From assembly GCF_900104695.1 (NCBI RefSeq), contig NZ_FNSW01000001.1:2046001-2110000 (forward strand): 64,000 nucleotides of DNA, given 5' to 3'. How positions within the stretch are numbered: the first letter of the stretch is position 1; each line of letters opens with the position of its first letter. Below are positions 11,424-45,697 of the stretch, piece after piece. The position numbers were made by a program, and so were the translations under genes. The notes beneath the pieces were generated by a model that saw only the letters and a list, made by a program, of their open reading frames with translations, was not told the origin of the DNA and made no database searches. The stretch is from Paenibacillus sp. GP183. GTDB lineage: Bacteria > Bacillota > Bacilli > Paenibacillales > NBRC-103111.

Positions 11424-12888
11424 ACTTGAGTGTTGCGAAAATATTGCCGTCGATGACCGCAGATTTAGGGTAGAAATTTAGAAGCTTCGTCGAATCCATA
11501 AACAGAAGAAGGACATCGCCTTTGGATAGAGAAATTGTCGTTTACCACAACTACAATTTCCAAGAAAAGGAGATGTCCCAATCTCATGGTATCCCTCTAC
11601 TTGCCTATCGTCAAGTTCATTTTAGCCTTGAAGCTGGAATTTTCTAAACCACAGCTTGGTCATCTGTTTACCCTCATTCACGGCATCATTCTTTGTGCCG
11701 GCCGTAAAAATATGACACAAATTCAGCAAGCTGCCCGAGGAGATCGTCACCTCAGTAATGTCACGAATTTTTTGAATCATTCGCCATGGTGCGTTAATCG
11801 CATGCAGCGCCGACGCATGCAATTCATAATGGATAAGATTCGCGATAAACGAGCAAAGAGCGGTGACACTCGACAACTTGTATTCTTCATCGTGGATGAT
11901 ACTTGCTGTAAGAAGGAAACCTCGACGAAGAAAATGGAAGCCCTCAGCTTTCAATACTCACACGAAGCCGGAAAATCAGTCTGGTGCCACTGCGTTGTCA
12001 CTGCTCACATTGTAAGCGAAGGCAGTTCCTATGCTTGGGATTTTCGTCCCTATTACCGTGAAGAATATTGCGAGGAGCACCGCTTATCATTCAAAAGCAA
12101 GAACGATCTCGCTCTTGAAATGATTGAAGCATTCCCGGCTTCGAAAGACGAACAAGTTTACGTTCTGATGGATAGCTGGTACACCAGTGAGAAGGTCATT
12201 AATGCCTGTAACCTCAAGGGTTTTCATGTCATCGCCGCTGTAAAGACGAATCGACTGATCTGCGTCAGCGGTATAACGATCTCCATGGTTGATTTCGCTG
12301 TCCAGTATCTTCGCAAGTCTGACCTCCGCTCCGTTACGGTGGAAAGTCAGGGAACGTACTGGGTTTATGAATATGAAGGACCATTAAGCGAAATGGAAAA
12401 CGTCAAAGCTCTGCTGTCTTGGAAAGATGAATATGCCGATTCGAGCAAACCTCAGGTTTGTCTCCTGTGTACGGATTTAAGCTTGGATCTCGTCACGATC
12501 CAACGCTATTATCACGTACGATGGAACATCGAAACCGGCTATCGCTATTTCAAAGAACTGCTGGGCTTTGACCACTATCAGTTGCTCTCATTTGCAGGCA
12601 TTCAACGGTTTTGGACCATTCAGTATCTGACGCAGAACTTTCTGGAATCTCAGCGTCAGGACTGGATGAAGAGCGACAAGCATCTTACGCTTGGAGATGT
12701 GGTGTACAGAATCCGGCAAGAGTATTTCGGGCAGATCATCGTATACGTGTATCAACAAGCCCTAGAGAAAAAGCCCCTATTCGACATCCTTAAGCATCTC
12801 AAGATACCTGCCTGAGCAAGCGAGTTTCCCGTCATGCTACAAGTCTGCCCATTTTCGAAAGTTTCGTTGGAAATCGCAAGACTCAAGT
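11424..12888. mobile_element. IS4-superfamily insertion sequence, complete, with 5-bp target duplication
   Basis: A 1465-bp element with imperfect terminal inverted repeats: ACTTGAGTGTTGCGA at 11424-11438 and its partner at 12874-12888 (14 of 15 match). The target duplication TATTT flanks both ends (11419-11423 and 12889-12893). It encodes one intact transposase. It is inserted in the short gap between the threonine aldolase gene and the PepT-like peptidase gene; without it the gap would be about 100 bp. Perfect flanks and an intact reading frame point to recent insertion. Confidence 0.85.
11586..12815 (+). CDS. IS4/IS701-like DDE transposase
   Basis: The frame opens at 11535. The ATG at 11586, behind AGGAG, gives 409 residues and a family-like N-terminus (MVSLYLPIVKFI). 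The DDE catalytic set is visible: the first Asp in FIVDDTCCKKE, the second in LMDSWYTS, and the Glu within the Y-x2-R-x3-E-x6-K signature of IS4-type transposases (YHVRWNIETGYRYFK). No frameshift or stop is present, so the enzyme is probably active. IS4 and IS701 families are closely related; the 5-bp duplication does not fit the usual 4-bp pattern of IS701, so I leave the exact family open. Confidence 0.88.
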   Translation: MVSLYLPIVKFILALKLEFSKPQLGHLFTLIHGIILCAGRKNMTQIQQAARGDRHLSNVTNFLNHSPWCVNRMQRRRMQFIMDKIRDKRAKSGDTRQLVFFIVDDTCCKKETSTKKMEALSFQYSHEAGKSVWCHCVVTAHIVSEGSSYAWDFRPYYREEYCEEHRLSFKSKNDLALEMIEAFPASKDEQVYVLMDSWYTSEKVINACNLKGFHVIAAVKTNRLICVSGITISMVDFAVQYLRKSDLRSVTVESQGTYWVYEYEGPLSEMENVKALLSWKDEYADSSKPQVCLLCTDLSLDLVTIQRYYHVRWNIETGYRYFKELLGFDHYQLLSFAGIQRFWTIQYLTQNFLESQRQDWMKSDKHLTLGDVVYRIRQEYFGQIIVYVYQQALEKKPLFDILKHLKIPA

Positions 12889-12961: not shown

Positions 12962-14236
12962 TCACTTCTTTTGCAATAGAGGCTCCATCATGTTTTCTAC
13001 CCCTACGAGCCCAATCATGGTCAGAAATATTTTTTGCACTCCGTAATATGCATCTGTCGGATCAAACCATTCATCTATCGTATGACTTCCTCCGTTTGAG
13101 CCGCCTCCACCCAAGGTGACCGCTGGAACTCCTAAACTAATGGGCACATTGGAATCCGTACTGCTTGGTTCGCCGAGCAGCGGTTTAAAACCAAGGGCTT
13201 CAGTTGATGCCAAAGCAGCTTGAACAATAATAGCTTCTGCCGATTGGAACCCTGCAGGGCGATCTCCTACGAGTTTAATATCCACTTGAATCGCATCGTT
13301 TTTCCAATGCTCATTCTCTTCTTTTGCTGCTTCTTTTAAAAAGGTTATTACTTTCTCCTCCAGCTTCAGTAATTCTTCCGGCGAAGTAGAACGCATATCG
13401 AGCAGCATTGCAGCCTCGGCGGCAATGGTATTAACGGAAGTGCCGCCGCTTATCGTTCCAACGGTAAACGTTATTTTTGGCTCCTCTGGCACGTTCAGTT
13501 CAGATATTTTAGCAATCGCCCTTCCCAGAGCATGAATCGCGCTTGGAAGTCCGAAGGCTCCGTAGCTGTGGCCCCCTGGCCCCTTATAAGTAATACTGTA
13601 CCTGCGGGAACCTGTTCCCAAATAAGTCGTGCGGGAAGGGTTCCCTGGCTCAACGGATATAAATCCATCTAAGTCGAGCTGCTCTCTGAAAATCGCCTTT
13701 GTTCCCCGTAAATCTCCCAATCCTTCCTCTCCTACAACACCGCCGAATACAATGTCGCCCTTGGTTTGAATATTGGCTTTATTTAATGCTCTGGCAAGCG
13801 CAAGAACAGTCGTCAGGCCTCTGCAGTCATCAGCGATCCCCGGTCCAATGTACTTCCCGTCTTCCTTTCTAACCGTCGTATCCGTACCTTCAGGAAAGAC
13901 AGTATCCAGATGGGCGCAAACAAATAGTTTAGGTCCGTTCCCTGTCCCCGGACGGACTCCGAAAACATTCCCTTCCTGATCTGTCCGGATATCCTTTAAG
14001 CCTAAATCTTCCAAACGTTTTTTGTAATATTGCGCACGAACGTGTTCTTTAAAAGGAGGAGCCGGAATTTCTGTAATGGCAATCTGATCTGCCATTGTAG
14101 CATCGTTGTCCGATTTTATAAATTCCAATCCTGCTATTACATGTGTATCGGTTAGGAGATTCTCATATACTTTCTTCACATCGTTGGAGATGAAATAAGC
14201 TGTTTCATTCTTCACACGCTCATTGTCGATACTCAT
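12962..14236 (-). CDS. M20 family metallopeptidase, PepT-like (tripeptide aminopeptidase type)
   Basis: The frame opens at 14275. The ATG at 14236 with AAGGAGG nine bases upstream is the better start (424 residues). M20 zinc motifs are present: AHLDTVFP, GPGIADDCRG, GEEGLGD and a late GGSNGGSHT. The pattern matches PepT and related aminopeptidases, which remove N-terminal residues from short peptides. It lies 44 bases after PepF, so it is probably co-transcribed with the oligopeptide transporter. The IS element begins about 70 bases past its stop codon. Confidence 0.88.
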   Translation of the reverse strand: MSIDNERVKNETAYFISNDVKKVYENLLTDTHVIAGLEFIKSDNDATMADQIAITEIPAPPFKEHVRAQYYKKRLEDLGLKDIRTDQEGNVFGVRPGTGNGPKLFVCAHLDTVFPEGTDTTVRKEDGKYIGPGIADDCRGLTTVLALARALNKANIQTKGDIVFGGVVGEEGLGDLRGTKAIFREQLDLDGFISVEPGNPSRTTYLGTGSRRYSITYKGPGGHSYGAFGLPSAIHALGRAIAKISELNVPEEPKITFTVGTISGGTSVNTIAAEAAMLLDMRSTSPEELLKLEEKVITFLKEAAKEENEHWKNDAIQVDIKLVGDRPAGFQSAEAIIVQAALASTEALGFKPLLGEPSSTDSNVPISLGVPAVTLGGGGSNGGSHTIDEWFDPTDAYYGVQKIFLTMIGLVGVENMMEPLLQKK

Positions 14237-14280
14237 TCTTAATGCCTCCTTAAAATGATGTTTCACCTCAACCAATAGCC

Positions 14281-16086
14281 TTATCCAGCGAAAAGCTTTT
14301 CCAATTCGTCAACCAAGGAACCGACATAAGCGACAGCGCTCCGAATTGGCTGCTGCTGCGACATATCGACACCAACTAACTTCATAAGATCAAGCGGCCG
14401 CATACTGCCTCCTGCCTTAAGCGCTTCAAGCCAACGATCGACCGCCGGCTGCCCTTCCTTGCGGATGATAGATGCTGCTGCTGTAGAGGCTGTTAAACCA
14501 GCAGCGTATGTGTACGGATAAAGTCCTTTATAATAGTGCGGCTGACGCATCCACGTCAAGCTGGCCCCCGGATCTAATTCCACGGCATCTCCCCAAAACT
14601 CCGAAAGCACTTGACCTTTCAACAAGGAAAGCTTTTGGGCGGTAAGCGGTTCATCCGCCTCAGCTGCCGCATATACCCTGCTCTGCATATCTCCTTCGAG
14701 CAAATGGGTTACGAAGTTGTGATAATAAGTATTCATGAGTTGAAGGATGACCCAACGCTTCAGACGAAGATCGTCGGATTGTTCCGTCAGATATTGTGCC
14801 AGAAGGAGCTCGTTCATGGTCGAAGGCGCTTCGATGAAAAACATGGTAGGTCTAAAATTCGTATACCGCTGATTACGCGAGGCAAGCATAAGATGTCCGG
14901 CGTGTCCTACCTCATGCGCCAATGTAAATGCACTGCGCATATTGCCCGACCAGGTGATCAGAATGTAAGAGTGTGATCCATACGGAGTGGCACAAAACGC
15001 ACCTGTTGATTTCCCGATGTTGTCCGCATAGTCAACCCATCTTTCTGCCAGTGCTTGTTCCACGATTGCCGAATACTCCGGACCCAGCACCTTCAAGGCG
15101 TCCATAATGATGCTACCCGCCTTCTCAAAGGAAATCGGCGGGCTGAACTCGGGATCAAGAGGAGTGTGCAAATCGCAAAACAGCATTTGCTTAAGGCCTA
15201 GCTCCCGCTGCTTGAGCTTCGCAAACCGGCGCATATGAGGGGCCAGCTCCGTACGTATAATATCCAGAACATTGCGATGCATCTCTATGGTAACCTGTTG
15301 AGGCTGAAGCAGCATATGGGTAACCGATTCATAACCCCGCAGTCGCGACATCACAATTTGCTTCTTCACTTCTGTAGCATAAACAGCTGCAAATGTATTC
15401 TTGTACGCCTCTAACGTCCGTGCAAACGATTGATAGGCGGCACGACGAAGGATTGTGTCCGATGACAGCGCATAGTCCGCTTCGTATAATGCGAACGAAA
15501 CAGGCCATTTCGTGCCTTTTCCATCCTCCGCAGGAGAAAAAGACATGTCCGCCAGCTTGCTTCGCAGGTAAATCGTTTGCGGCGCTTCCAACACTTCACC
15601 GAGTGATGCCAGGACAGCTTCCGTGTCCGGATTCAGCCGGTGCGGTTTTGTTTCAAGCAAATCCGTTAAACTCTTCCGAAATGCCGCCAAGCCAGGCTTT
15701 TCCACCAAATAGCTTTCAATCGTTCCGTCCGGTAAAGCCAGCAGCTCCGATCGAATAAACGAAAGCGCCGCACTTACTTCCGAGACGACATCACCCACTC
15801 GCGCCGAATTGGCTTGGTGAATCGGATTCGTTCCATCTTCGGAAAGCCGTAAGCGCGCATAAGTCGCTGTCTGCTGGATACGAATGTGAATGGCTTCTTC
15901 CGCTTCCAAACAGGCAAGCACTTTGTCCGCTCCTTCATGTAGTTTATCCTTATAGTTTAGCACGGAAGGAACCAGCTCTTGAATACTCTGCAATTCCGCT
16001 TCCCATGCCTCGATATTCGGAAACAAATCATCAAGGTTCCATTGTTGCTCCGTCATGACCTGGTCTCGCGAACTTCTCTCTCTCAT
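14281..16086 (-). CDS. pepF: M3 family oligoendopeptidase F
   Basis: The frame opens at 16116. GGAGGTAA directly upstream of the ATG at 16086 makes that the likely start (601 residues, the usual PepF length). The zinc site HEVGH is at 391-395, with the downstream glutamate in 'FFIEAPSTMNELL'. PepF-type enzymes cut medium-length peptides inside the cell. It follows the DppC-type permease by 30 bases and precedes the PepT-like peptidase. Import and intracellular hydrolysis are thus encoded in one transcript. Confidence 0.92.
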   Translation of the reverse strand: MRERSSRDQVMTEQQWNLDDLFPNIEAWEAELQSIQELVPSVLNYKDKLHEGADKVLACLEAEEAIHIRIQQTATYARLRLSEDGTNPIHQANSARVGDVVSEVSAALSFIRSELLALPDGTIESYLVEKPGLAAFRKSLTDLLETKPHRLNPDTEAVLASLGEVLEAPQTIYLRSKLADMSFSPAEDGKGTKWPVSFALYEADYALSSDTILRRAAYQSFARTLEAYKNTFAAVYATEVKKQIVMSRLRGYESVTHMLLQPQQVTIEMHRNVLDIIRTELAPHMRRFAKLKQRELGLKQMLFCDLHTPLDPEFSPPISFEKAGSIIMDALKVLGPEYSAIVEQALAERWVDYADNIGKSTGAFCATPYGSHSYILITWSGNMRSAFTLAHEVGHAGHLMLASRNQRYTNFRPTMFFIEAPSTMNELLLAQYLTEQSDDLRLKRWVILQLMNTYYHNFVTHLLEGDMQSRVYAAAEADEPLTAQKLSLLKGQVLSEFWGDAVELDPGASLTWMRQPHYYKGLYPYTYAAGLTASTAAASIIRKEGQPAVDRWLEALKAGGSMRPLDLMKLVGVDMSQQQPIRSAVAYVGSLVDELEKLFAG

Positions 16087-16116
16087 CGTTTCTTTACCTC
16101 CAATAGGTTTACGCAA

Positions 16117-16989
16117 TTAACGTGAATCGAAAGCGCTTCGCAGCCCGTCGCCGATAAAGTTGAAGCACATGATCGTCAAGAAAATCATGAAGCCCGGAAT
16201 GAATGGACACCAAGGCGCTTTGGTCATGATCGTCAAGCTCTGCGCGGATTGGAGCAGATTTCCCCAGCTCGCCGTAGGGGGTTGAATCCCGAGTCCAAGA
16301 AAGCTTAAAGTCGATTCCGTCAATATCAAGCCGCCCATCTGCAGGGTGGCTGAGACGATGACCGGAGCCAAAGCGTTCGGCAGTATATGCCGAAAAATAA
16401 TTCGAAAATCGGACATCCCGATAGTTCGAGCCGCATCCACGTACTCACGGTTTTTCACGGTAAGGATTTGGCCTCGCAATAGCCTCGCTTTGGCCATCCA
16501 CCCGAAGACGATTAACACCATGATAATATTGAAGAGACTTGGCTTTAATATGGTGACAACGGCGATCAGGACAAATTGCTGCGGAAATGACAGCATAACG
16601 TCCGTAAACCGCATCAATAATCCGTCAATTTTACCGCCATAAAAGCCGGCTATAGAACCAACCGTTATCCCGATTATAACATTGAACAGAACAGCGAAGA
16701 TCCCGACGGACAAGGATATCCGTGCGCCATATAGAACACGGCTGAGTAAATCCCGCCCCAAATCGTCGGTTCCGAACCAATGCCCCTTACTCGGCGGCTT
16801 CAGCTTATTTAGCAGATTCTGCTCCGTCGGATCGAATGGAGCGATCCAGGGCGCTAGCAGTGCAAGCACGATAAGCCCCACTATGATGAACAAGCTGATC
16901 AGCGCCGTCTTGTTCTGCTTGAACCGTTCCCACGCCCGGTTTTTGGGCAAGGCCGTCTGCAGCACTTTGTTGGAAACAACTACATCCAT
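16117..16989 (-). CDS. Peptide ABC transporter permease, DppC/OppC type
   Basis: A GTG at 16998 opens the frame, but it is too close to the AAAGG site; the ATG at 16989 gives 290 residues. It has the N-terminal segment of OppC/DppC (ALIAPFDPTEQNLLNKL...HWFGTDDLGRD), about six membrane segments and the cytoplasmic EAA-type loop 'DAARTIGMSDFRIIFRHILPN'-like region around residues 195-215. It forms the membrane channel with the DppB-type partner, whose stop codon lies only 5 bases upstream. Confidence 0.92.
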   Translation of the reverse strand: MDVVVSNKVLQTALPKNRAWERFKQNKTALISLFIIVGLIVLALLAPWIAPFDPTEQNLLNKLKPPSKGHWFGTDDLGRDLLSRVLYGARISLSVGIFAVLFNVIIGITVGSIAGFYGGKIDGLLMRFTDVMLSFPQQFVLIAVVTILKPSLFNIIMVLIVFGWMAKARLLRGQILTVKNREYVDAARTIGMSDFRIIFRHILPNALAPVIVSATLQMGGLILTESTLSFLGLGIQPPTASWGNLLQSAQSLTIMTKAPWCPFIPGFMIFLTIMCFNFIGDGLRSAFDSR

Positions 16990-16994
16990 CGCCC

Positions 16995-17966
16995 TCACAC
17001 CTTTACTTCCTTTTTATTAAAGCTAACTCGAGGATCCAGAACGGCGTACAACAAGTCAGCTAATAGATTGCCGAACACATGCAAGAAGGCACCGATCGTC
17101 GTGATTCCGAAAATAACCGGATAATCCCGTTGGAATGCCGCCTCGATAAACAGCCGACCCATCCCGGGAATACTGAAAATCGATTCCGTGATCAAGGCTC
17201 CTGCGAAAAACGTCGGCAGAGACAGACCTAACAAGGTGGCCAGCGGGATCAAGGCATTTCTCAAGCCATGCAGCATAAGCACCCTTCCATTCATTAATCC
17301 TTTTGCCTTCGCCGTCCGCACGTAATCCTGGTTGATGACCTCCAGCATGCTGGAGCGGACATATCTCAGCCAAAACGCGACTTCGTGCGACGCCATCACG
17401 CACACCGGCATAATGAGATGAATGATTCGATCCGGCAAGCTGAACGGAGCGTTAATCGTCAACAATCCTCCGGACGGCAGCCACCCAAATTTTACGGAGA
17501 AGAGCAAAATGAGCAGCAAGCCAAGCCAAAAGGCGGGTGTGGAAATCCCTACAAACGTGATGGCCGATACGATCTGATCCAATCGGGAGTTGACTTTCAC
17601 CGCGCAAAGTACTCCGAGTGGAACCGCAATGATTATAGCTGAAAGGAAAGCAGACACCGTGAGGAGCAGCGTAAACGGAAGCCGGTTCACAATCATTTGG
17701 TTAACCGGTTCATGCTTGATAAATGAAGTTCCGAAATCCCCTCGCACCATGCCGCTGACCCAATTCCAGTACTGAATAAGGAGCGGTTGATCCAACCCGT
17801 AGGCTTTCATCATATTTTCCTTGTCGGCGGCCGTGATGGTCGGATCATCCAGAAGATGGGAGAGCGGGCTTCCCGGAGCCAAGTGGATAATGAAAAACGA
17901 GATGATCGTGATGCCAAACAAAATCGGGATGGCGTTCAGAAAACGCCGCAGCGCGTAGTTAGCCAT
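16995..17966 (-). CDS. Peptide ABC transporter permease, DppB/OppB type
   Basis: 323 residues with the family N-terminus (LRRFLNAIPILFGITI), 'FFIIHLAPGSP' and the EAA-loop 'RTAKAKGLMNGRVLMLHGLRN' around residues 215-235. Six membrane segments are apparent. It pairs with the DppC-type permease directly downstream. Its start lies 18 bases after the binding-protein stop, consistent with an Opp/Dpp operon. Confidence 0.92.
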   Translation of the reverse strand: MANYALRRFLNAIPILFGITIISFFIIHLAPGSPLSHLLDDPTITAADKENMMKAYGLDQPLLIQYWNWVSGMVRGDFGTSFIKHEPVNQMIVNRLPFTLLLTVSAFLSAIIIAVPLGVLCAVKVNSRLDQIVSAITFVGISTPAFWLGLLLILLFSVKFGWLPSGGLLTINAPFSLPDRIIHLIMPVCVMASHEVAFWLRYVRSSMLEVINQDYVRTAKAKGLMNGRVLMLHGLRNALIPLATLLGLSLPTFFAGALITESIFSIPGMGRLFIEAAFQRDYPVIFGITTIGAFLHVFGNLLADLLYAVLDPRVSFNKKEVKV

Positions 17967-17984
17967 CGTTGGTCACAACCTTCA

Positions 17985-19649
17985 TTATTTTGTAAAATAC
18001 CAATTTTCGATATCTTTCAGGTTGGATTTTTTCGGATTCATACCTTCCAGTTTGACCGGATAGGCCATTGTATCCGTAGGTGAGTACAGGAACGAATACC
18101 CTTGATCCTCGGCGATCAACGAATCGATTTTAGCAAGCGTTTCTTTCCGTTTGTTGATGTCTAATAATCTTAAGTCTTCGTCGATCAGCTTATCAACTTC
18201 CGGATTGCTATAGTTAGCATGATTGTTACAGCCTGCGCAATTTGAGGAGGTATGCCATGTACCTTTAGGGTTCGGGTCGCCGTTTCGATTCCAACCATAA
18301 ACAGTTGCTTCATATTTGCTGCTGCGGACGTTTTGTGAGTAAGCGGTATTCTCCATCACACGTGGTGTAACGGTAATTCCGACTTTTTTCAGATTTTGCT
18401 GAATCACCGTTGCGATTTTCTGGCGCTCAACGCTTGCTTGGCTGACCAACAGTTCGAATGCTAAGGGCTTCCCGTCTTTCACCAAAACTCCATCGCTTCC
18501 AGGCTTCCAACCGGCATCGGCAAGCATTTGCTTCGCCTTCGCCTCGTTATAATCGAACTTCGGCACTTTGTCTGTATAATTCCAAAATGGCGGAGGAGTC
18601 TGGCTGTTAACAATCACTCCCTGCCCCTCGATGACGTTGCTGATGATGCCTTGACGATCAATAGCCGTAGTGATCGCTTGGCGAACTAATTTGTCCTTGA
18701 AAATCGGGTGATTGTTATTCCAGGCAATAGCCGTGTAGGAGGTGGTGGGAATGCTTTCCTTCAGCTTGATTTTCCCCGATTTTTGTGCGAATTCCTTGAT
18801 CGCTGCAATGTTTTCGCCGGTAACGAGATTGACGTTAATTTCTCCGGTTTGCAGCTGCGCCATCGCAACGTTAGAGCTTGGAATCACTTTAATGGTGACT
18901 TTTTCAATCGAAGGCTTGCCTTTGAAGTACGTTTCGTTGCGGACGAAAGTCAAGTATTGCCCATCCTTCCACTCCACTAGCTTATAGGGTCCGGAGCCAA
19001 CAGGCGACTGCTTGTAGAACGGCGACTTTTCTATCTCTTTGATCGGCACGTCTTTCAGCACATGCTGTGGCACTACCGCATAGGCCAACATACCGTAATA
19101 TCCAGCGAATGGCTCTTTAAACGTAAACTTGACAGTTGTATCATCCACTTTCTCGATTTTTTGCAGCTGCTCGAAGACACTTTTGCGCAAGCCGACATAA
19201 TCCTTGCTAATGGGAATGTTGTAACTGAATACGACGTCGTCAGCTGTTAGCGGATGGCCGTCGGAGAAAGTGATGCCTTTGCGGATTTTAACTGTTAATT
19301 CCTTAGAATCGGAAGAAACCTGAGGCATGCCATCCGCCAGATCCGGCTCTATGTCTTGAAGATCAGTTAATTTGTACAAGCCGTTGAATACGAGCTCCTG
19401 TATCTCAGTCGATACTTGCGACGTAGTCCAGAGCTTCATCCAACCCTGATGTTCGGTCGTGTTGGAGACGATGATTTCGCCGCCGTCGACCTTATCCTTT
19501 TTAGAAGAGGTTGTCCCGGCGGATGGTGCGGACGACTCTTTTTGAGCGGTGTTGCCCCCCGCCCCTGTGCAGCCGGCTAAAATGACGATGGCACCCATCA
19601 TGGACGCAATCACGATGGAAGCAAATTTTCGATACGGTTTGTACGGCAT
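17985..19649 (-). CDS. Peptide ABC transporter substrate-binding lipoprotein (SBP_bac_5)
   Basis: 554 residues with a lipoprotein signal and lipobox ending at Cys27 (ILAGC). Family 5 marks include 'DIEPDLADGMPQVS', 'FSDGHPLTADDVVFSY', 'PVGSGPYKLVEW' and 'RQAITTAIDRQGI'. Such receptors sit on the outer face of the membrane and pass oligopeptides to the DppB/DppC channel encoded next. Starts with ATG behind GAGGGGA. It differs in sequence from the binding protein at the window start. Its gene lies inside the ATPase-receptor-permease-peptidase run. Confidence 0.92.
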   Translation of the reverse strand: MPYKPYRKFASIVIASMMGAIVILAGCTGAGGNTAQKESSAPSAGTTSSKKDKVDGGEIIVSNTTEHQGWMKLWTTSQVSTEIQELVFNGLYKLTDLQDIEPDLADGMPQVSSDSKELTVKIRKGITFSDGHPLTADDVVFSYNIPISKDYVGLRKSVFEQLQKIEKVDDTTVKFTFKEPFAGYYGMLAYAVVPQHVLKDVPIKEIEKSPFYKQSPVGSGPYKLVEWKDGQYLTFVRNETYFKGKPSIEKVTIKVIPSSNVAMAQLQTGEINVNLVTGENIAAIKEFAQKSGKIKLKESIPTTSYTAIAWNNNHPIFKDKLVRQAITTAIDRQGIISNVIEGQGVIVNSQTPPPFWNYTDKVPKFDYNEAKAKQMLADAGWKPGSDGVLVKDGKPLAFELLVSQASVERQKIATVIQQNLKKVGITVTPRVMENTAYSQNVRSSKYEATVYGWNRNGDPNPKGTWHTSSNCAGCNNHANYSNPEVDKLIDEDLRLLDINKRKETLAKIDSLIAEDQGYSFLYSPTDTMAYPVKLEGMNPKKSNLKDIENWYFTK

Positions 19650-19684
19650 TTTTTTTCTGTTCCCCTCTCATTTTTCCTGAATTT

Positions 19685-20641
19685 TTAAACGAAATGGCAC
19701 GAGGCATAATGCCCAGCTTCTGTTTCCTTAAAAGCAGGCCTTTCGATTGAGCAGCGATCAACGGCATGCGGACAGCGCGGATGAAATGGGCAACCCGCAG
19801 GCGGATTGGCTGCACTCGGCACTTCGCCTCGCAGCACCATCCGTTCCCGCTTGAGGTCAACGTCAGGCTCTGGCACGGAGGACAGAAGCGCCTGGGTATA
19901 CGGATGTTTCGGATTTTCGAACAGCTGGTCCCTGCTCGCAGTCTCTACGATACGTCCTAAATACATCACCGCTACGCGGTCTGAAATGTTTCGCACAACG
20001 CTTAGGTTGTGGGAGATGAACATGTAGGAAACTTTCGATTCCTTCTGCAAATCGCCGAGCAGATTGACGATTTGGGCCTGAATGGATACATCCAAAGCGG
20101 ATACGGCTTCATCCGCCACAATGAGCTTCGGCTTTAAGGAGATCGCCCTGGCGATGGCAATACGCTGTCTTTGACCTCCGGAAAACTCGTGAGGATACAA
20201 TCGGACGACATTTCTGCTGAGGCCTACTTTTTCCAGCAATTCTTCCGCTTGCCGCATGGCCTCTGAACGGTTCATTCCTTCTTGAACAATCATCGGTTCG
20301 GCGATAGCGTTCCCAACTGAAATCCTCGGGTTAAGCGAGGCGAATGGATCCTGAAAAACACACTGCAGGTTTTTCCGAAAAGGCCGAAGCTCGCGCTGGC
20401 TCATCGAACCTATGGAGACTCCGTTAAAGAGGATTTCGCCTGCGGTTGGATCCAAGAGCCGTAAAATCAATCGACCCAGCGTCGATTTCCCGCAGCCCGA
20501 TTCGCCTACGATTCCCAGCGTTTCTCCTTCGCGTACGATGAAGTTCACTTCGTCGACGGCCTTGATGGAGCCCTTCTTGAAGCTTTGGTCGATCGGAAAA
20601 TACTTTTTGAGTCCTTTTACTTCCAGAAGTGGAGTGGTCAA
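19685..20641 (-). CDS. Peptide ABC transporter ATP-binding protein, OppF/DppF type
   Basis: 318 residues from a TTG start with GGGGGA eight bases upstream. Walker A GESGCGKST is at 46-54, the signature is in 'EFSGGQRQR', and Walker B is 'LIVADEAVSALD'. The C-terminal oligopeptide-transporter extension with paired cysteines (CPFHPRCPHAVDRC) is typical of OppD/OppF and may hold an iron-sulphur centre or zinc. It works with the OppD-type subunit encoded 23 bases upstream. Confidence 0.93.
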   Translation of the reverse strand: MTTPLLEVKGLKKYFPIDQSFKKGSIKAVDEVNFIVREGETLGIVGESGCGKSTLGRLILRLLDPTAGEILFNGVSIGSMSQRELRPFRKNLQCVFQDPFASLNPRISVGNAIAEPMIVQEGMNRSEAMRQAEELLEKVGLSRNVVRLYPHEFSGGQRQRIAIARAISLKPKLIVADEAVSALDVSIQAQIVNLLGDLQKESKVSYMFISHNLSVVRNISDRVAVMYLGRIVETASRDQLFENPKHPYTQALLSSVPEPDVDLKRERMVLRGEVPSAANPPAGCPFHPRCPHAVDRCSIERPAFKETEAGHYASCHFV

Positions 20642-20663
20642 GCCGATTATCCCCCTTTACTAG

Positions 20664-21626
20664 CTATACAAGAATGCAGCGGACTTTATGGCCGGGGCGA
20701 TATTCCCTAAGCTCTGGCACTTTCTCGCGGCATTCCGCCGTTGCCATCGGACAGCGATCCATGAATCGGCAGCCTTCCGGATAGTGTCCGGCAGGAGGTA
20801 CCGTACCTGAGATCGGGCTTAGCTTCTCAATCTTTCCATGCATACGCGGGGTAGAGTTCAGCAAGCCCTTCGTATACGGATGAATCGGCGATGTGAACAA
20901 TGTCCGAACGTCGGTAGTTTCCACAATCTGTCCGGCATACATGACGATCACACGGGTCGCCATCTCGGCCACCACTCCGAGGTCATGCGTAATAAAGAGA
21001 ACGGACATATCGGATTCTCTCAGCAATTGCCGAATCAGATCGAGTACCTGGGCTTGAATCGTCACATCAAGCGCGGTCGTCGGCTCGTCGGCGATGAGCA
21101 AATCCGGCTTGCATGACATGGCCATGGCCAGCATGATCCGCTGCCGCATGCCGCCGGACAATCGATGCGGGAATTCCTTCCGAATTCGCTTCGGCTCGGG
21201 GAATCCGACCCGGCGAAGCCATTCGTCCGCAATGGTGACTGCCTCAGTTTTCGAAACTTTCAAATGACGGACGATCGATTCGGTCAACTGCAAGCCGATC
21301 GTCAGCACCGGGTTCAGCGAGGTCATTGGCTCCTGAAAGATCATCGCGATTTGCCGTCCGCGGATCTGCGACATTTCCCGGTAATTGAGTCCGACCAGAT
21401 TACGCCCCCGAAACCGGATTTCACCTTTGGAGATTTCCCCCGTTTTAGGCAATAGCTGCATGATGGACAGCGACGTCATACTCTTGCCGCAGCCCGATTC
21501 GCCAACCAGCGCCACTACTTCTTTTGGCCCAATCTCGAAGTTGATGACGTCTACTATGGTTGTTACCTTCTGTTTGTCTCTAATTACCGTTTTGAGATCT
21601 TTTACTTCCAAGATCGCTTCAGCCAT
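20664..21626 (-). CDS. Peptide ABC transporter ATP-binding protein, OppD/DppD type
   Basis: 320 residues. Walker A GESGCGKSM is at 42-50, the signature is in 'RLSGGMRQR', and Walker B is 'LLIADEPTTALD'. The C-terminal cysteine-bearing extension (CRFMDRCPMATAEC) marks an Opp/Dpp ATPase. 'FQEPMTSLNPVLTIG' is characteristic of the OppD branch. It lies 49 bases after the S9 peptidase gene and before OppF. Confidence 0.93.
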   Translation of the reverse strand: MAEAILEVKDLKTVIRDKQKVTTIVDVINFEIGPKEVVALVGESGCGKSMTSLSIMQLLPKTGEISKGEIRFRGRNLVGLNYREMSQIRGRQIAMIFQEPMTSLNPVLTIGLQLTESIVRHLKVSKTEAVTIADEWLRRVGFPEPKRIRKEFPHRLSGGMRQRIMLAMAMSCKPDLLIADEPTTALDVTIQAQVLDLIRQLLRESDMSVLFITHDLGVVAEMATRVIVMYAGQIVETTDVRTLFTSPIHPYTKGLLNSTPRMHGKIEKLSPISGTVPPAGHYPEGCRFMDRCPMATAECREKVPELREYRPGHKVRCILV

Positions 21627-21674
21627 GTGCTCACCTTCACTTTATGGAGATTCGCCGAGTCCTAATATTAAAGC

Positions 21675-23474
21675 TTAAAGCTCCAAATGCTGCCGAAAAA
21701 ATTGCGCGACTTTCTCGTTCATCAGGATGTGATTCTCGAGCTTTTCTGTCTTATGCCCCTCGTCGTCGAAGACAATCAACTCAGCTTGCTGCCCTCTTGC
21801 TATCATATCTGCATACATCTGTTCGGATTCGCTAACCGGCACGCGAGTATCGTTTCTACCATGAAAGATTAGCAAGGGAGCTTTAATGTTATGAGACAGA
21901 TTCAATGGAGCGATCTCTTCAAAGAAGTCCGAATCGTCCGCCAAAGTGCCGTACTCCATCTCCCTTAGCTTCCTGCGCCAAAGTCCGGTATTTTCCAGAA
22001 ACGTGCGGAAATGCGAAATGCCGACAATGTCTACGCCTGCCGCCCACAAATCGGGATATTGGGTCAACGCAGCGAGCACCATGAATCCGCCATAGCTTCT
22101 GCCGATAATACCGATTTTCTCGCTATCCACAGCATCGATTCCGGCTATGTCTTTGACCAGCCAGGCCAGATCTGCAACGGAGTCCAGTCTTTTTCTTCCG
22201 TTATCCAAGTTCATATATTCATTGCCGTACCCTGAGCTTCCCCGAACGTTGGGTACGAATACGGCAAAACCTTGTCCGGCCAAGTACTGAACGACCGCAT
22301 TGAATTCATATTTGGCTTGCGATTCGGGACCGCCATGCACATAGACAACAGCAGGCGATTTCTTCGCTTCCTGCTTATAATAAAAATAAGGAACCTTGAG
22401 CCCGTCAAACGAAGAAAAGGTGCGCAATTCCGGCTCTCGCCAAGACGGATCATCTCCTTCTGTCCGGCCGAAATGAGTAAGCCTTTCCAGGGAATGGGTT
22501 TCCACGCCGTAGCGGAATATATCCCCCGGTAAAACTGGACTCTTCAGAGTGAAAATCAGCTGCCTTTCATTAAACCATGCGATCGAGTCGATCACGCCTT
22601 GCGGAATTTCTGCGATTACATCGGATTGTCCGGTTGTCACGTCGTATATGTGAAGGATTGAAATACCGCCTTCGTTAACCGTATAAGCGATCGTGGTTTC
22701 GTCGGGAGACAGCTTGGCTTCCTCGATATCCCATTTGGGGAAATGCGCCAGTTTGGTCAGCTCACACCTCAAAGTAAAACGATATAAAGCCATTGTGTTC
22801 TCCGCAGCGTCGGACAATAAATACCCCAAGCTTCCATCCTTCACTATCTGCACGGACTCATAACGGCTCAGAGCTTCAAACCCGATCCTTGTCGTACCGC
22901 CGGAATTCAAATCCAGAACATATAACCTTTGCAAATGACTGCCTTCCCGACATTTGATCAGCAGGCTGTTGCCGTCCGGCAGCCAGCGTTCGGGATCGCA
23001 TCTGCCTTCGAACCGGTAGACGACTTCGGTTTGTTTTGTCTCTACATCTTGCACGAACACATCGAAATATGCGGGATTCCTGCGATTGCTGGACCAGGCA
23101 ATTTTCTTCCCGCAGGGGGACCAACCTCCCAAGTAATGAAAATACTCCGGGGCTATCATCAATTCTTCAACCGCTCGAGTTTCATTATCGATCAGATAAA
23201 GCTGCTGCTTTTCGTTTCCCTTGTAGTCCATGCCGATGACGATTTTATCTCCGTTTGGAGAATGACTGACATCCATCACCGAGTCGGGCATAACGTTGAA
23301 TTGTTCACTGCGAGATTCGGCTGCATCCCAGTACCAAAGCTGAGGAATTCCGGTTTTTTTCGATAAGAATGTTACCTGTTCCTTGTGCGGAACAACCTTC
23401 GGAGAATAGGCGGAGCCAATGTCAAGATAAGCTTTAAAAGAATGAATTATTTCTGTCACGTCTCTAATTGTCAT
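21675..23474 (-). CDS. S9 family peptidase (acylaminoacyl/prolyl oligopeptidase type)
   Basis: 599 residues from ATG with AAAGGAGGG upstream. Residues ~20-330 form repeated beta-propeller blades (repeated 'SP.G..I' segments such as 'SHSPNGDKIVIGMDYKG'). The C-terminal alpha/beta hydrolase holds the triad Ser460 (GRSYGG), Asp542 (GRNDTRVP) and His574 (DDEGHKT). There is no signal peptide, so it acts in the cytoplasm, cutting short peptides or N-acyl peptides. It is the first gene of the peptide run. The control region upstream carries two sigma-54-type promoters. Confidence 0.9.
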   Translation of the reverse strand: MTIRDVTEIIHSFKAYLDIGSAYSPKVVPHKEQVTFLSKKTGIPQLWYWDAAESRSEQFNVMPDSVMDVSHSPNGDKIVIGMDYKGNEKQQLYLIDNETRAVEELMIAPEYFHYLGGWSPCGKKIAWSSNRRNPAYFDVFVQDVETKQTEVVYRFEGRCDPERWLPDGNSLLIKCREGSHLQRLYVLDLNSGGTTRIGFEALSRYESVQIVKDGSLGYLLSDAAENTMALYRFTLRCELTKLAHFPKWDIEEAKLSPDETTIAYTVNEGGISILHIYDVTTGQSDVIAEIPQGVIDSIAWFNERQLIFTLKSPVLPGDIFRYGVETHSLERLTHFGRTEGDDPSWREPELRTFSSFDGLKVPYFYYKQEAKKSPAVVYVHGGPESQAKYEFNAVVQYLAGQGFAVFVPNVRGSSGYGNEYMNLDNGRKRLDSVADLAWLVKDIAGIDAVDSEKIGIIGRSYGGFMVLAALTQYPDLWAAGVDIVGISHFRTFLENTGLWRRKLREMEYGTLADDSDFFEEIAPLNLSHNIKAPLLIFHGRNDTRVPVSESEQMYADMIARGQQAELIVFDDEGHKTEKLENHILMNEKVAQFFRQHLEL

Positions 23475-23513
23475 CTGTTTTCCCTCCTTTTGAAAAGAAT
23501 TATATAAAGATCA

Positions 23514-23529
23514 AGCAATTTTCATGCCA
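23514..23529 (-). promoter_or_regulatory. Proximal sigma-54-type promoter of the peptide operon
   Basis: On the minus strand the sequence is TGGCATGAAAATTGCT. It matches the TGGCACR-N4-TTGCW consensus at all positions but one (T for C). Transcription would start about 12 bases after the GC of the -12 box, near 23503. That leaves a ~28-base leader with the AAAGGAGGG site before the ATG at 23474, a natural arrangement. Confidence 0.65.
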
Positions 23530-23743
23530 ATACTCAGGAAATCCTGTTTTATAGGCTTTGGAGAAGATCAACTTTATTTTTGCATCGACTCATAGTTTAA
23601 TGAATATTCTGACTTTAATTCGGATGACATAGCCCAAGTGAAGGCGCGGGAGTATGAATTCTTCATTGCTTCAGTTCCAACTCCATCATAAATGGACATT
23701 CAATGGCAATTTTGTTTACATAAAAATTTGATAATTAATTCGA

Positions 23744-23759
23744 GCAATATTCGTGCCAA
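23744..23759 (-). promoter_or_regulatory. Distal sigma-54-type promoter of the peptide operon
   Basis: On the minus strand the sequence is TGGCACGAATATTGCT, a complete match to the sigma-54 (SigL) consensus TGGCACR-N4-TTGCW. It lies 270 bp upstream of the S9 peptidase start. Such promoters need an enhancer-binding ATPase; none is encoded in this window. Confidence 0.7.
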
Positions 23760-23871
23760 TTATTATATTTTCGTTGTTCTTACACGTTTTGAGTACAATA
23801 ATATTAGTGGAAATGTGTTAATTGGTTTTCAGGGTAACCTATTCTTGAATTTATAACTCTATGTACAACAG

Positions 23872-23888
23872 TAAAATGTCACATTTTA
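23872..23888. promoter_or_regulatory. Candidate enhancer (UAS) palindrome upstream of the sigma-54 promoters
   Basis: TAAAATGTCACATTTTA is a perfect palindrome with 8-base arms around one C. Its centre is about 123 bp upstream of the distal -24 element, the distance usual for enhancer-binding activators. The remainder of 23475-24014 shows no gene. Confidence 0.5.
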
Positions 23889-23955
23889 TTCCATATTACA
23901 TGCATAATTTTTACATGTCTAGATACTTTTTCACACAATCCAATCAATCGGAGAG

Positions 23956-23985
23956 AAAAAAGCCATGGAACTTATCGTCCATGGC
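23956..23985 (-). terminator. Rho-independent terminator after the acetamidase/formamidase gene
   Basis: GCCATGGA at 23962-23969 pairs perfectly with TCCATGGC at 23978-23985. On the minus strand the stem is followed by six T residues. It isolates the peptide-operon control region from upstream transcription. Confidence 0.8.
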
Positions 23986-24014
23986 ATAGTTGTTGGTCTA
24001 ATTTCCTTCTTCTT

Positions 24015-24920
24015 TTATAACATGGATAATACGGCTTTTGGAACTTTACACACGACGCTGTATGCGGGATTGAATACATTAGCTACCTCGTACTCAACAG
24101 CCTGGCCCATAAGGAGGCTTGCTTCCGAATCCGTTAAGCCGTAATCTTCCTTAAGCAAAGACAGCATTTCCGTCGTTGCATGCTGCAGCGCTTGGTCCAG
24201 CGGCCTGGCGTTGCCGATGCAAAACAAATGTGTTTCGGATTCGCCTCTCGGCCACCCGATTGTTTTTCCTTTCAGCACCCGAACCGTGAAACGGACATCC
24301 AAGGAAATTTCCACACCGGTACCCACAATTTCCCCGCAGCCTTGAACGGCATGCCCATCCCCAAGATGAAAAAGCGCTCCTTCCGATAAAACCGGAAAAT
24401 AGACAGTAACACCGGATACAAGTCCTTTATAGTCCATATTTCCGCCGTATACACCGCTCGTAGCCGTTGAAATGGCCTGTCCCCTGGAAGGCGCCACCCC
24501 AAAGCATCCCAGAAATGGACTTGCCTTCAGCTTCAAATTGACCAGACCGGAAGTGGGCTTCTCCAGAAAAACCAAATCTTCCTGAACAGACCACCGAGTT
24601 ATTTCGGATGGCGGTAAAGCAGCGGCAGCCGTGGGATCGACGACGTTCGGCGCTAATACGCTGGACGTCCAACCCCAGCCCCGGTTGGGGGTCATCGACT
24701 CTAGCTGAATAGCAAGCGTATCTCCAGGCTGTGCGCCTTCCACATAGAATGGCCCTGTCATCGGATTGCCTCGTCCGGCCACGCTTTCCCCACTGTGATC
24801 CCAGCCTCTTGCATCAACTGTGTTTGTCACGACGGTATCCCCATCGGCAATTTTAAGCACGGGTTGATGTCCACCTATTGTGTTGTAGTAAATTTCGGGT
24901 TGAAAATGGTGTACTGTCAT
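24015..24920 (-). CDS. Acetamidase/formamidase family protein
   Basis: 301 residues from ATG behind AGGAGGAGG. Family marks of FmdA/AmdA are present: 'NTVDARGWDHSGE' near the start, 'GNPMTGPFYVEGAQPGDTL', 'GDGHAVQGCGEIVGTGVE' and a late 'NPAYSVVCKVPK'. These cytoplasmic amidohydrolases free ammonia from short amides such as formamide or acetamide. It has its own terminator and probably its own promoter in the ~80 bp upstream, so it is a single-gene unit. An ammonia-scavenging role next to a peptide cluster is plausible but inferred. Confidence 0.9.
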   Translation of the reverse strand: MTVHHFQPEIYYNTIGGHQPVLKIADGDTVVTNTVDARGWDHSGESVAGRGNPMTGPFYVEGAQPGDTLAIQLESMTPNRGWGWTSSVLAPNVVDPTAAAALPPSEITRWSVQEDLVFLEKPTSGLVNLKLKASPFLGCFGVAPSRGQAISTATSGVYGGNMDYKGLVSGVTVYFPVLSEGALFHLGDGHAVQGCGEIVGTGVEISLDVRFTVRVLKGKTIGWPRGESETHLFCIGNARPLDQALQHATTEMLSLLKEDYGLTDSEASLLMGQAVEYEVANVFNPAYSVVCKVPKAVLSML

Positions 24921-25048
24921 TATTCATCCTCCTCCTAAAATCTTTTTATTCCAGTATAAACGAAGTTCCTATGAATTAGCACTTAAAAAATCATGCTTAT
25001 TTAAAATAGTCTTCTGAAATCCATTACTATCATCCAAATAAAAAAACA

Positions 25049-44599: not shown

Positions 44600-45697
44600 C
44601 TATTTGATACGATATTGTTCAAAATAAGATGGGATAATTTCCGTAGAGGCTCCCGGCATTTCCGGCAACACATAGTACCCATCTTTAACCGTTGCAGGTT
44701 CTACAAAAATATGTCGGATCCACGGAATATACTCCAGCATGATGGCGTTTTGTGTGGACGCAACCAAATGCTGATGAATCTGACCCATATCGCCTACATG
44801 CGGACAAATGGGAATATCATAGGAAGCCGCCAAGCCAGCTACTTGAAGCCATTCCGTAATACCGGCCACCCGTGTCACATCCACTTGACAATATTCTACG
44901 GCACCGTTGTGTATGTAGTCGCGGAATGCATATTTGTTGTACACGTGCTCCCCCAGGGCAATGGGTACATTCAGCTCGTCTGCAAGCTTTTTATGGCCCA
45001 TAATGTCATCTGGATTAAGCGGCTCCTCTAACCAAAACAGGTCGAACTCCTCCAGCTTCTTGCCCCAAGTCATTGCAGTGTTGATATTCCATTGTTGATT
45101 CACGTCGATCATAAAAATCGTCTTCTCGCCGATCACTTTGCGCACGGCCTTGACGCGATCGTAATCTTCGTGCGGATCCGTTTTGCCCACTTTTATCTTA
45201 ACACCGGTGAATCCCTGTTCGACGATCTCGGCTACATCTCTAAGCAGACGCTCCTTCGACCAGTTCAGCCAGCCTCCGTTGGTGTTATATGCTTTGATTT
45301 GTTTCGATTTATGACCGCCAAGATATTGCCACAACGGCTTATTCGCCGCTTTGGACATGATATCCCATAAGGCGATATCCACCGCTGCCAAAGCCATGTG
45401 AGTAATGCCCGAGCGGCCGATCCAGTGCATTTTGCCGAACCGCAGCTCATCCCAGATTTGCTTGACCATAAACGGATCCTTACCCAGCAGCTCCGGTGCG
45501 TAGTAGCGATCAATCGTATCAGTGATCATCTCATCGCCATTTGCACATGTGCCCGTATATCCATAGCCAACGAACCCTTCGTCGGTATAAATTCGAACTC
45601 CCGCCAGTCCCCAATGCGTTGCAACATTAATGGCATCTGTAATCGGTGGAGTAATCGGAACATGCAAAATAAAGCTCTCTACCTTGGTAATTTTCAT
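44600..45697 (-). CDS. Mandelate racemase/muconate lactonizing enzyme family protein (sugar acid dehydratase type)
   Basis: 365 residues from ATG behind AAGGAG. Enolase-superfamily layout: N-terminal cap (1-125) and barrel. Catalytic and metal residues: Lys167/Lys169 (GVKIKVG), Asp198 (MIDVNQQW), Glu224 (WLEEPL), Glu250 with His251 (ALGEHVY), Asp273, His300 (CPHVGD) and Glu322. The pattern fits acid-sugar dehydratases of the mandelate racemase group. Neighbouring genes encode an IclR regulator, an SDR and an FAH-family hydrolase, the set used in non-phosphorylated L-fucose/L-rhamnose breakdown. A fuconate- or rhamnonate-type dehydratase is therefore plausible, not proven. Confidence 0.87.
   Translation of the reverse strand: MKITKVESFILHVPITPPITDAINVATHWGLAGVRIYTDEGFVGYGYTGTCANGDEMITDTIDRYYAPELLGKDPFMVKQIWDELRFGKMHWIGRSGITHMALAAVDIALWDIMSKAANKPLWQYLGGHKSKQIKAYNTNGGWLNWSKERLLRDVAEIVEQGFTGVKIKVGKTDPHEDYDRVKAVRKVIGEKTIFMIDVNQQWNINTAMTWGKKLEEFDLFWLEEPLNPDDIMGHKKLADELNVPIALGEHVYNKYAFRDYIHNGAVEYCQVDVTRVAGITEWLQVAGLAASYDIPICPHVGDMGQIHQHLVASTQNAIMLEYIPWIRHIFVEPATVKDGYYVLPEMPGASTEIIPSYFEQYRIK

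Follow-up and report, generated by a model that had tools for sequence, protein, structure and literature searches.

The locus analysed here raises the question of whether a cluster of peptide-use genes is under sigma-54 control and, if so, which activator serves it, since sigma-54 promoters cannot fire without an activator. The window, by which we mean the whole 64,000-nt stretch under analysis (C1:2046001–2110000), belongs to a 5.83 Mb genome in three contigs. It encodes an S9 peptidase (nearest solved structure, 5l8s), an oligopeptide ABC transporter and two further peptidases, which we treat as one putative operon, S9-oppDFABC-pepF-M20 (Table 1). The original prediction placed a sigma-54 control region in a 540-bp gap before the S9 gene. 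The gap holds, ending at the end of a formamidase-like ORF, and sigma-54 control of the peptide operon is well supported by the comparisons below.

Table 1. Features of the putative operon, its upstream gap and its flanks (positions in the window).
Feature	Position	Strand	Remarks
Transposase-like ORF (named by eye)	11535..12815	+	Occupies the place of P. filicis rpoN after M20
M20 peptidase	12962..14275	-	PF01546; start codon uncertain
Oligoendopeptidase F (M3)	14281..16116	-	TIGR00181 above its cut-off
oppD, oppF, oppA, oppB, oppC oligopeptide ABC transporter	16117..21626	-	Named from order and similarity
S9 peptidase (acylaminoacyl/prolyl oligopeptidase-type)	21675..23474	-	PF00326, E 5.3e-45; first gene of the putative operon
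Proximal sigma-54 promoter TGGCATGAAAATTGCT	23514..23529	-	Likely counterpart of the P. filicis S9 promoter TGGTATGAAAATTGCA
41-aa ORF between both promoters	23574..23699	-	Without clear ribosome site; possibly spurious
Distal sigma-54 promoter (-24/-12) TGGCACGAATATTGCT	23743..23758	-	Exact consensus match; likely counterpart of the P. filicis oppD promoter
Candidate enhancer block GGTTACCCTGAAAACCAATTAA	23818..23839	-	-81 to -60 from the distal -24 element
Palindrome TAAAATGTCACATTTTA	23872..23888	.	Exact; core TGTGACA at 23877-23883 (-); possible second, degenerate activator site
Terminator-like hairpin after formamidase-like ORF (named by eye)	23962..23985	-	Upstream border of the gap

Both of the predicted minus-strand sigma-54 matches are present, the distal one a single base off the 23744–23759 given for it earlier. 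Each carries GG and GC dinucleotides 10 bp apart within TGGCAYR-N4-TTGCW; the proximal element TGGCATGAAAATTGCT has one mismatch to TGGCACR and none to TGGCAYR. Both elements lie upstream of the gene, point in its direction and are kept in one relative. The S9 start codon (23474) is 40 nt from the proximal site and 269 nt from the distal site. In Bacillus thuringiensis, the distance to the start is 32–55 nt for 9 of the 16 sigma-54 promoters tabulated (PMC4428206).

Two strict TGGCAYR-N4-TTGCW matches in 541 bp arose in none of 5000 dinucleotide shuffles, and at least one match arose in 5 of the 5000. With the pattern of the original prediction, the whole window holds 27 matches at up to two mismatches against a shuffle mean of 17.7, a mild enrichment (4 of 100 shuffles reach 27). 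The same pattern at up to one mismatch finds 110 sites in the genome, compared with 61 for a reversed control pattern; gene placement covers those of the 110 whose loci were fetched. Eight sites among the matches listed genome-wide fit TGGCAYR-N4-TTGCW: four are intergenic, three lie in genes and one (2127157) is close to the beginning of an ORF with an uncertain true start. The intergenic four are the two S9-upstream sites and a duplicated pair near the sigL operon. The three matches inside genes (5010499, 561749 and 3609777) were set aside, and a one-mismatch site at 432419 also lies inside a gene.

The sequence between the promoters was examined for other features. For the 41-aa ORF, the compared loci gave only the ORF itself at a meaningful E-value, and it was set aside as possibly spurious. 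By eye, this patch is higher in G+C than its flanks. Rfam gave no structured-RNA match in window positions 21000–25000 at E-values up to 1. Because the 259-nt leader from the distal promoter to S9 folds no better than its shuffles (z 0.76), we claim no structured leader.

A counterpart of the operon occurs in Paenibacillus filicis dW9 (NZ_JAQAGZ010000016.1), from the same family as the window genome. The S9, oppD-F-A-B-C, M3 and M20 genes are common to both clusters at 75–88% identity, oppD being 88% identical. The P. filicis order is promoter, oppD-oppF-oppA-oppB-oppC-M3-M20-rpoN, and then S9 with its own promoter. After S9 come a divergent promoter, asparaginase II, a second OppA, an AstE-like protein, an amidohydrolase (IadA-like by our reading) and a 719-aa activator. 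Of the two clusters, only that of P. filicis carries the rpoN, activator, asparaginase, amidohydrolase and AstE-like genes, and S9 forms its own unit in it; neither the activator nor the cluster rpoN has a match in the window. This rpoN is 48% identical to the sigL of the window genome, versus 36% to a second P. filicis rpoN. An enolase-superfamily-like gene at window positions 44603–45697, 21 kb from the promoter region, is 83% identical to a P. filicis gene that follows the activator gene at a distance of 3.5 kb. An activator gene once present between the operon and this enolase-superfamily-like gene may have been lost.

All three P. filicis promoters stand close to their genes. The oppD promoter TGGCATGGATATTGCA is a strict match 43 nt before the start codon. 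The S9 promoter TGGTATGAAAATTGCA and the asparaginase promoter TGGCAAGGATATTGCT have one mismatch each and stand 51 and 53 nt before their start codons, respectively. For S9 this is the start that aligns with the window protein, chosen because the longest ORF runs back over the promoter.

Homologous peptidase genes elsewhere served as controls. Among 104 genomes of the family, 12 contained S9 matches, 13 in all, with P. filicis closest. The 11 other matches, which include a second copy in P. filicis, have no site within one mismatch in their 1.5 kb upstream. Because these first loci reached only 1.5 kb upstream, 14 kb upstream was then fetched; these regions mostly contain diverged oppA-B-C-D-F genes (22–57% identical where assigned); none has a strict site, and the two one-mismatch sites they contain share a single region. 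Likewise, the M3 search gave 24 matches, 22 of which belong to neither the own nor the P. filicis cluster; the 14 of these 22 that were fetched hold no strict site and one one-mismatch site. The M20 search gave 16 matches in 392 genomes of the order, and the 14 other regions, two of which are truncated by a contig end, contain five one-mismatch sites and no strict one. These M3 and M20 orthologues were considered as further copies of the cluster and rejected: they sit elsewhere, without strict sigma-54 sites. In the set compared, sigma-54 sites track the cluster and not single genes. The only other genome of the same genus (G001) had no S9 match that passed the threshold, which left no close relative for footprinting.

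The upstream comparison thus has two sequences, the window and P. filicis, the sole other genome with both the cluster and its promoters. When 200 nt upstream of the distal promoter were compared, conservation was highest in a block of 22 bases that begins with GGTTACCC and lies between palindrome and distal promoter. This block, GGTTACCC-T/A-GAAAA-C/T-CAATTAA, is identical at 20 of 22 positions to the sequence upstream of P. filicis oppD, where it lies at -114. Its match score of 18 was reached by none of 1000 shuffles (largest, 17). The best match of the same region to the P. filicis S9 upstream sequence is not significant (300 of 1000 shuffles). The block that they have in common points to the P. 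filicis oppD promoter as the counterpart of the distal promoter. The proximal promoter resembles the P. filicis S9 promoter, its likely counterpart, in both sequence and position. Given these two likenesses, the tandem promoters look like an opp promoter and an S9 promoter brought together by the merger of two transcription units that are separate in P. filicis; we infer both the merger and its direction.

The palindrome had been proposed as the enhancer. It is exact, as claimed. Its near edge stands 113 bases upstream of the distal -24 element, and its centre 122. It is statistically weak, with arms of at least 8 bases in 87 of 2000 shuffles. No other place in the genome matches it within one mismatch and two do so at two; at up to three mismatches there are 30 places versus 31 for a control, which is no excess. 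It was not seen in front of any of the three promoters in the P. filicis cluster, over 260 nt each, and within that span no palindromic enhancer of the PspF/RocR/LevR type is conserved at the counterpart promoters. These comparisons do not support the palindrome as the enhancer; for that role the GGTTACC block is a better candidate.

This block may belong to a pair of sites. The palindrome core TGTGACA and GGTTACC are 44 nt apart in the window, forming a KGTNACM pair at -125/-81. The P. filicis oppD upstream region carries GGTTACC and GGTTACT 43 nt apart, only one of which fits KGTNACM. The P. filicis S9/asparaginase intergenic region contains GGGTTACAT and GGGTCACC, 33 nt apart, with the S9 pair at -90/-57. 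None of 71 control upstream regions has two KGTNACM sites; a single GGTNACC copy proves little because 6 of the 71 hold one. The TGTGACA core may be a second, degenerate activator site. The proximal promoter has no GGTNACC site within 260 nt.

The original prediction named the absence of sigL as evidence that would count against it. The genome encodes one sigma-54 (PF04552, E 5.6e-55) with all three sigma-54 Pfam domains. It also has one strong sigma-54 activator (PF00158, E 1.7e-70) at C1:2558764–2560110, 490 kb from the operon. This receiver-AAA+-Fis protein is an NtrC-type response regulator with GAFTGA, and it adjoins a histidine kinase-like ORF (by eye) and an OsmF-similar protein (below the model cut-off). 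Three other PF00158 matches are weak, their ORFs being Lon-, Clp- and MoxR-type ATPases by eye. An exact-match sigma-54 promoter near the NtrC-type gene, at 2550606, heads a same-strand ORF run that takes in sigL and stops after the next gene. Sigma-54 may thus control its own expression; likewise, rpoN in P. filicis follows sigma-54-promoted opp genes. The run (C1:2536646–2550621) is largely catabolic, with sigL as its second-last gene. The 2550606 promoter and its flanks are duplicated at 2555906, upstream of a 1579-aa ORF that by eye is surface-layer-like.

The P. filicis activator combines an AAA+ domain and a GAFTGA motif with a C-terminal HTH_12 winged helix; no Fis domain was detected. 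As a family-wide query at E up to 1e-30, it found no activator of its type in the window genome, where its sole match is the AAA+ domain of the NtrC-type protein (E 1.8e-60). By eye, the two weak HTH_12 matches in this genome are DeoR-like and ArsR-like proteins rather than activators. Relatives of the P. filicis activator (36–42% identity) adjoin strict sigma-54 sites in two genomes, with neighbours that by eye are Opp/asparaginase-like in G043 and M20-like and C26-like in G013. Because these relatives adjoin such genes and strict sites, the association of this activator type with peptide-use genes recurs in the family. HTH_12 falls just below the cut-off in G043 and was detected neither in G013 nor in a second P. 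filicis relative. At C5 in P. filicis, a related activator lies beside a strict sigma-54 site and transporter/M20-like genes. The G043 and G013 promoters have no GGTNACC in front of them, so this activator type does not always go with that site.

The best explanation, and in our judgement probably the correct one, is that sigma-54 genuinely controls the S9-oppDFABC-pepF-M20 operon from this region, as originally predicted. Promoter statistics, the sigL gene and a P. filicis cluster with three promoters, rpoN and an activator all argue for it. Sigma-54 RNA polymerase would bind the two tandem -24/-12 promoters. Opening would need an AAA+ activator bound ∼80–125 bp upstream at GGTTACC and perhaps also at TGTGACA. 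In P. filicis the 719-aa AAA+ protein with the HTH_12 C-terminus is the most likely candidate for this activator. Several observations stand against this explanation: searches of the genome did not find the cognate activator, the footprint has two sequences, one GGTNACC copy is not rare, P. filicis oppD has one KGTNACM site, the G043, G013 and proximal promoters lack GGTNACC, and two of the three P. filicis promoters, those of S9 and asparaginase, have one mismatch each. The original prediction also held that the regulator acts from elsewhere. Indeed, the window yielded no enhancer-binding protein; the rest of the genome did not yield one of the P. filicis type either, and the NtrC-type activator, 490 kb away, shares no upstream site with the operon. 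Because the activator gene was not found, the operon is either served by the NtrC-type activator, or silent or driven otherwise.

That the motifs are chance matches in an AT-rich gap, with an ordinary sigma-A promoter driving the operon, is very improbable. Five sigma-A-like sites can be found in the gap, against a shuffle mean of 3.0 (SD 1.7), not a clear excess, and this reading has to face both the shuffles and the P. filicis counterpart promoters with rpoN and an activator in their cluster. A more serious contender is that the promoters are relics: the P. filicis-type activator and the cluster rpoN are gone, and the operon is now sigma-A-driven or silent. For the past this is a sub-case of sigma-54 control; for the present it is a rival, to which we give somewhat less than even credence. 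Besides the missing activator, it draws on the transposase-like ORF in the place where rpoN directly follows M20 in P. filicis. In addition, GGTNACC is missing from the 200 nt next to the presumed target promoter of the NtrC-type protein, and this promoter has no significant block in common with the distal promoter. Decay is harder to reconcile with two elements that still fit TGGCAYR-N4-TTGCW, an enhancer block conserved at 20 of 22 positions and a proximal element nearer consensus than in P. filicis; the sigma-A-like sites, which show no clear excess, count against it too.

The other sub-case, in which the NtrC-type two-component activator took over both promoters, is tentative and on balance doubtful. 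This protein is the only strong activator profile match and has GAFTGA, the promoters look preserved, and the distal core AATTGGCACGAATATTGCT is near-identical to AATTGGCACGATTATTGCT, the promoter before the gene run neighbouring the NtrC-type gene. Against a takeover, no upstream site is common to both promoters, the best ungapped match between the upstream sequences being reached by 500 of 500 shuffles for one strand and 351 of 500 for the other, and the HTH is Fis-type, unlike the P. filicis winged helix. A broader version is unlikely: a modular peptide-use unit would have lost its own sigma factor and winged-helix activator, and its promoters would have been rewired to the NtrC-type protein, giving a minimal two-locus regulon. 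It is equally unlikely that the palindrome binds an unrelated repressor or activator acting on top of sigma-54; its perfect 8-base arms and lack of another genomic copy within one mismatch fit such a role, but the frequency of equal palindromes in shuffles and its absence from the P. filicis upstream regions do not.

An Opp/peptidase cluster had been called an unusual sigma-54 target, which holds in part. A literature search that had most subscription journals outside it gave no report of such an operon under sigma-54 control in Paenibacillaceae. In Clostridiales, the predicted sigma-54 regulons XcyR and YpdR are labelled peptide degradation (pepT; pepABC), which resembles the window (PMC6615313). 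Sigma-54 control of peptide degradation having already been predicted there, the kind of control is itself not new. Unlike in the window, no oligopeptide transporter or peptidase is named for these regulons, the words oligopeptide and peptidase being absent from the main text of that study, in which 335 of 490 activators have a Fis-type HTH (PMC6615313). The regulon of B. thuringiensis HD73 shares the -24/-12 form and the start-codon spacing and includes a sigma-54-dependent proline dipeptidase, HD73_4161 (PMC4428206). It differs in having eight activators, most beside their targets, and no Opp operon in its Tables 2 and 3 (PMC4428206). In Clostridioides difficile, predicted SigL promoters of the TGGCATA-N4-TTGCT type precede peptidase and amino acid transporter operons, in another class of bacteria and before different genes (PMC9130780). 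A table in a study of a Listeria sigB/sigL mutant lists oligopeptide transporter genes with negative fold changes (PMC7690807). The word oligopeptide was not found in the text available for two further papers (PMC3162934, PMC12316311).

For the family, the locus adds an oligopeptide transporter and S9, M3 and M20 peptidases to the likely targets of sigma-54. It also points to a P. filicis cluster that holds its own sigma-54 and activator genes, and it names GGTTACC as a candidate enhancer site for a winged-helix activator. Finally, it offers a clean case in which to follow the fate of sigma-54 promoters once the activator gene disappears.
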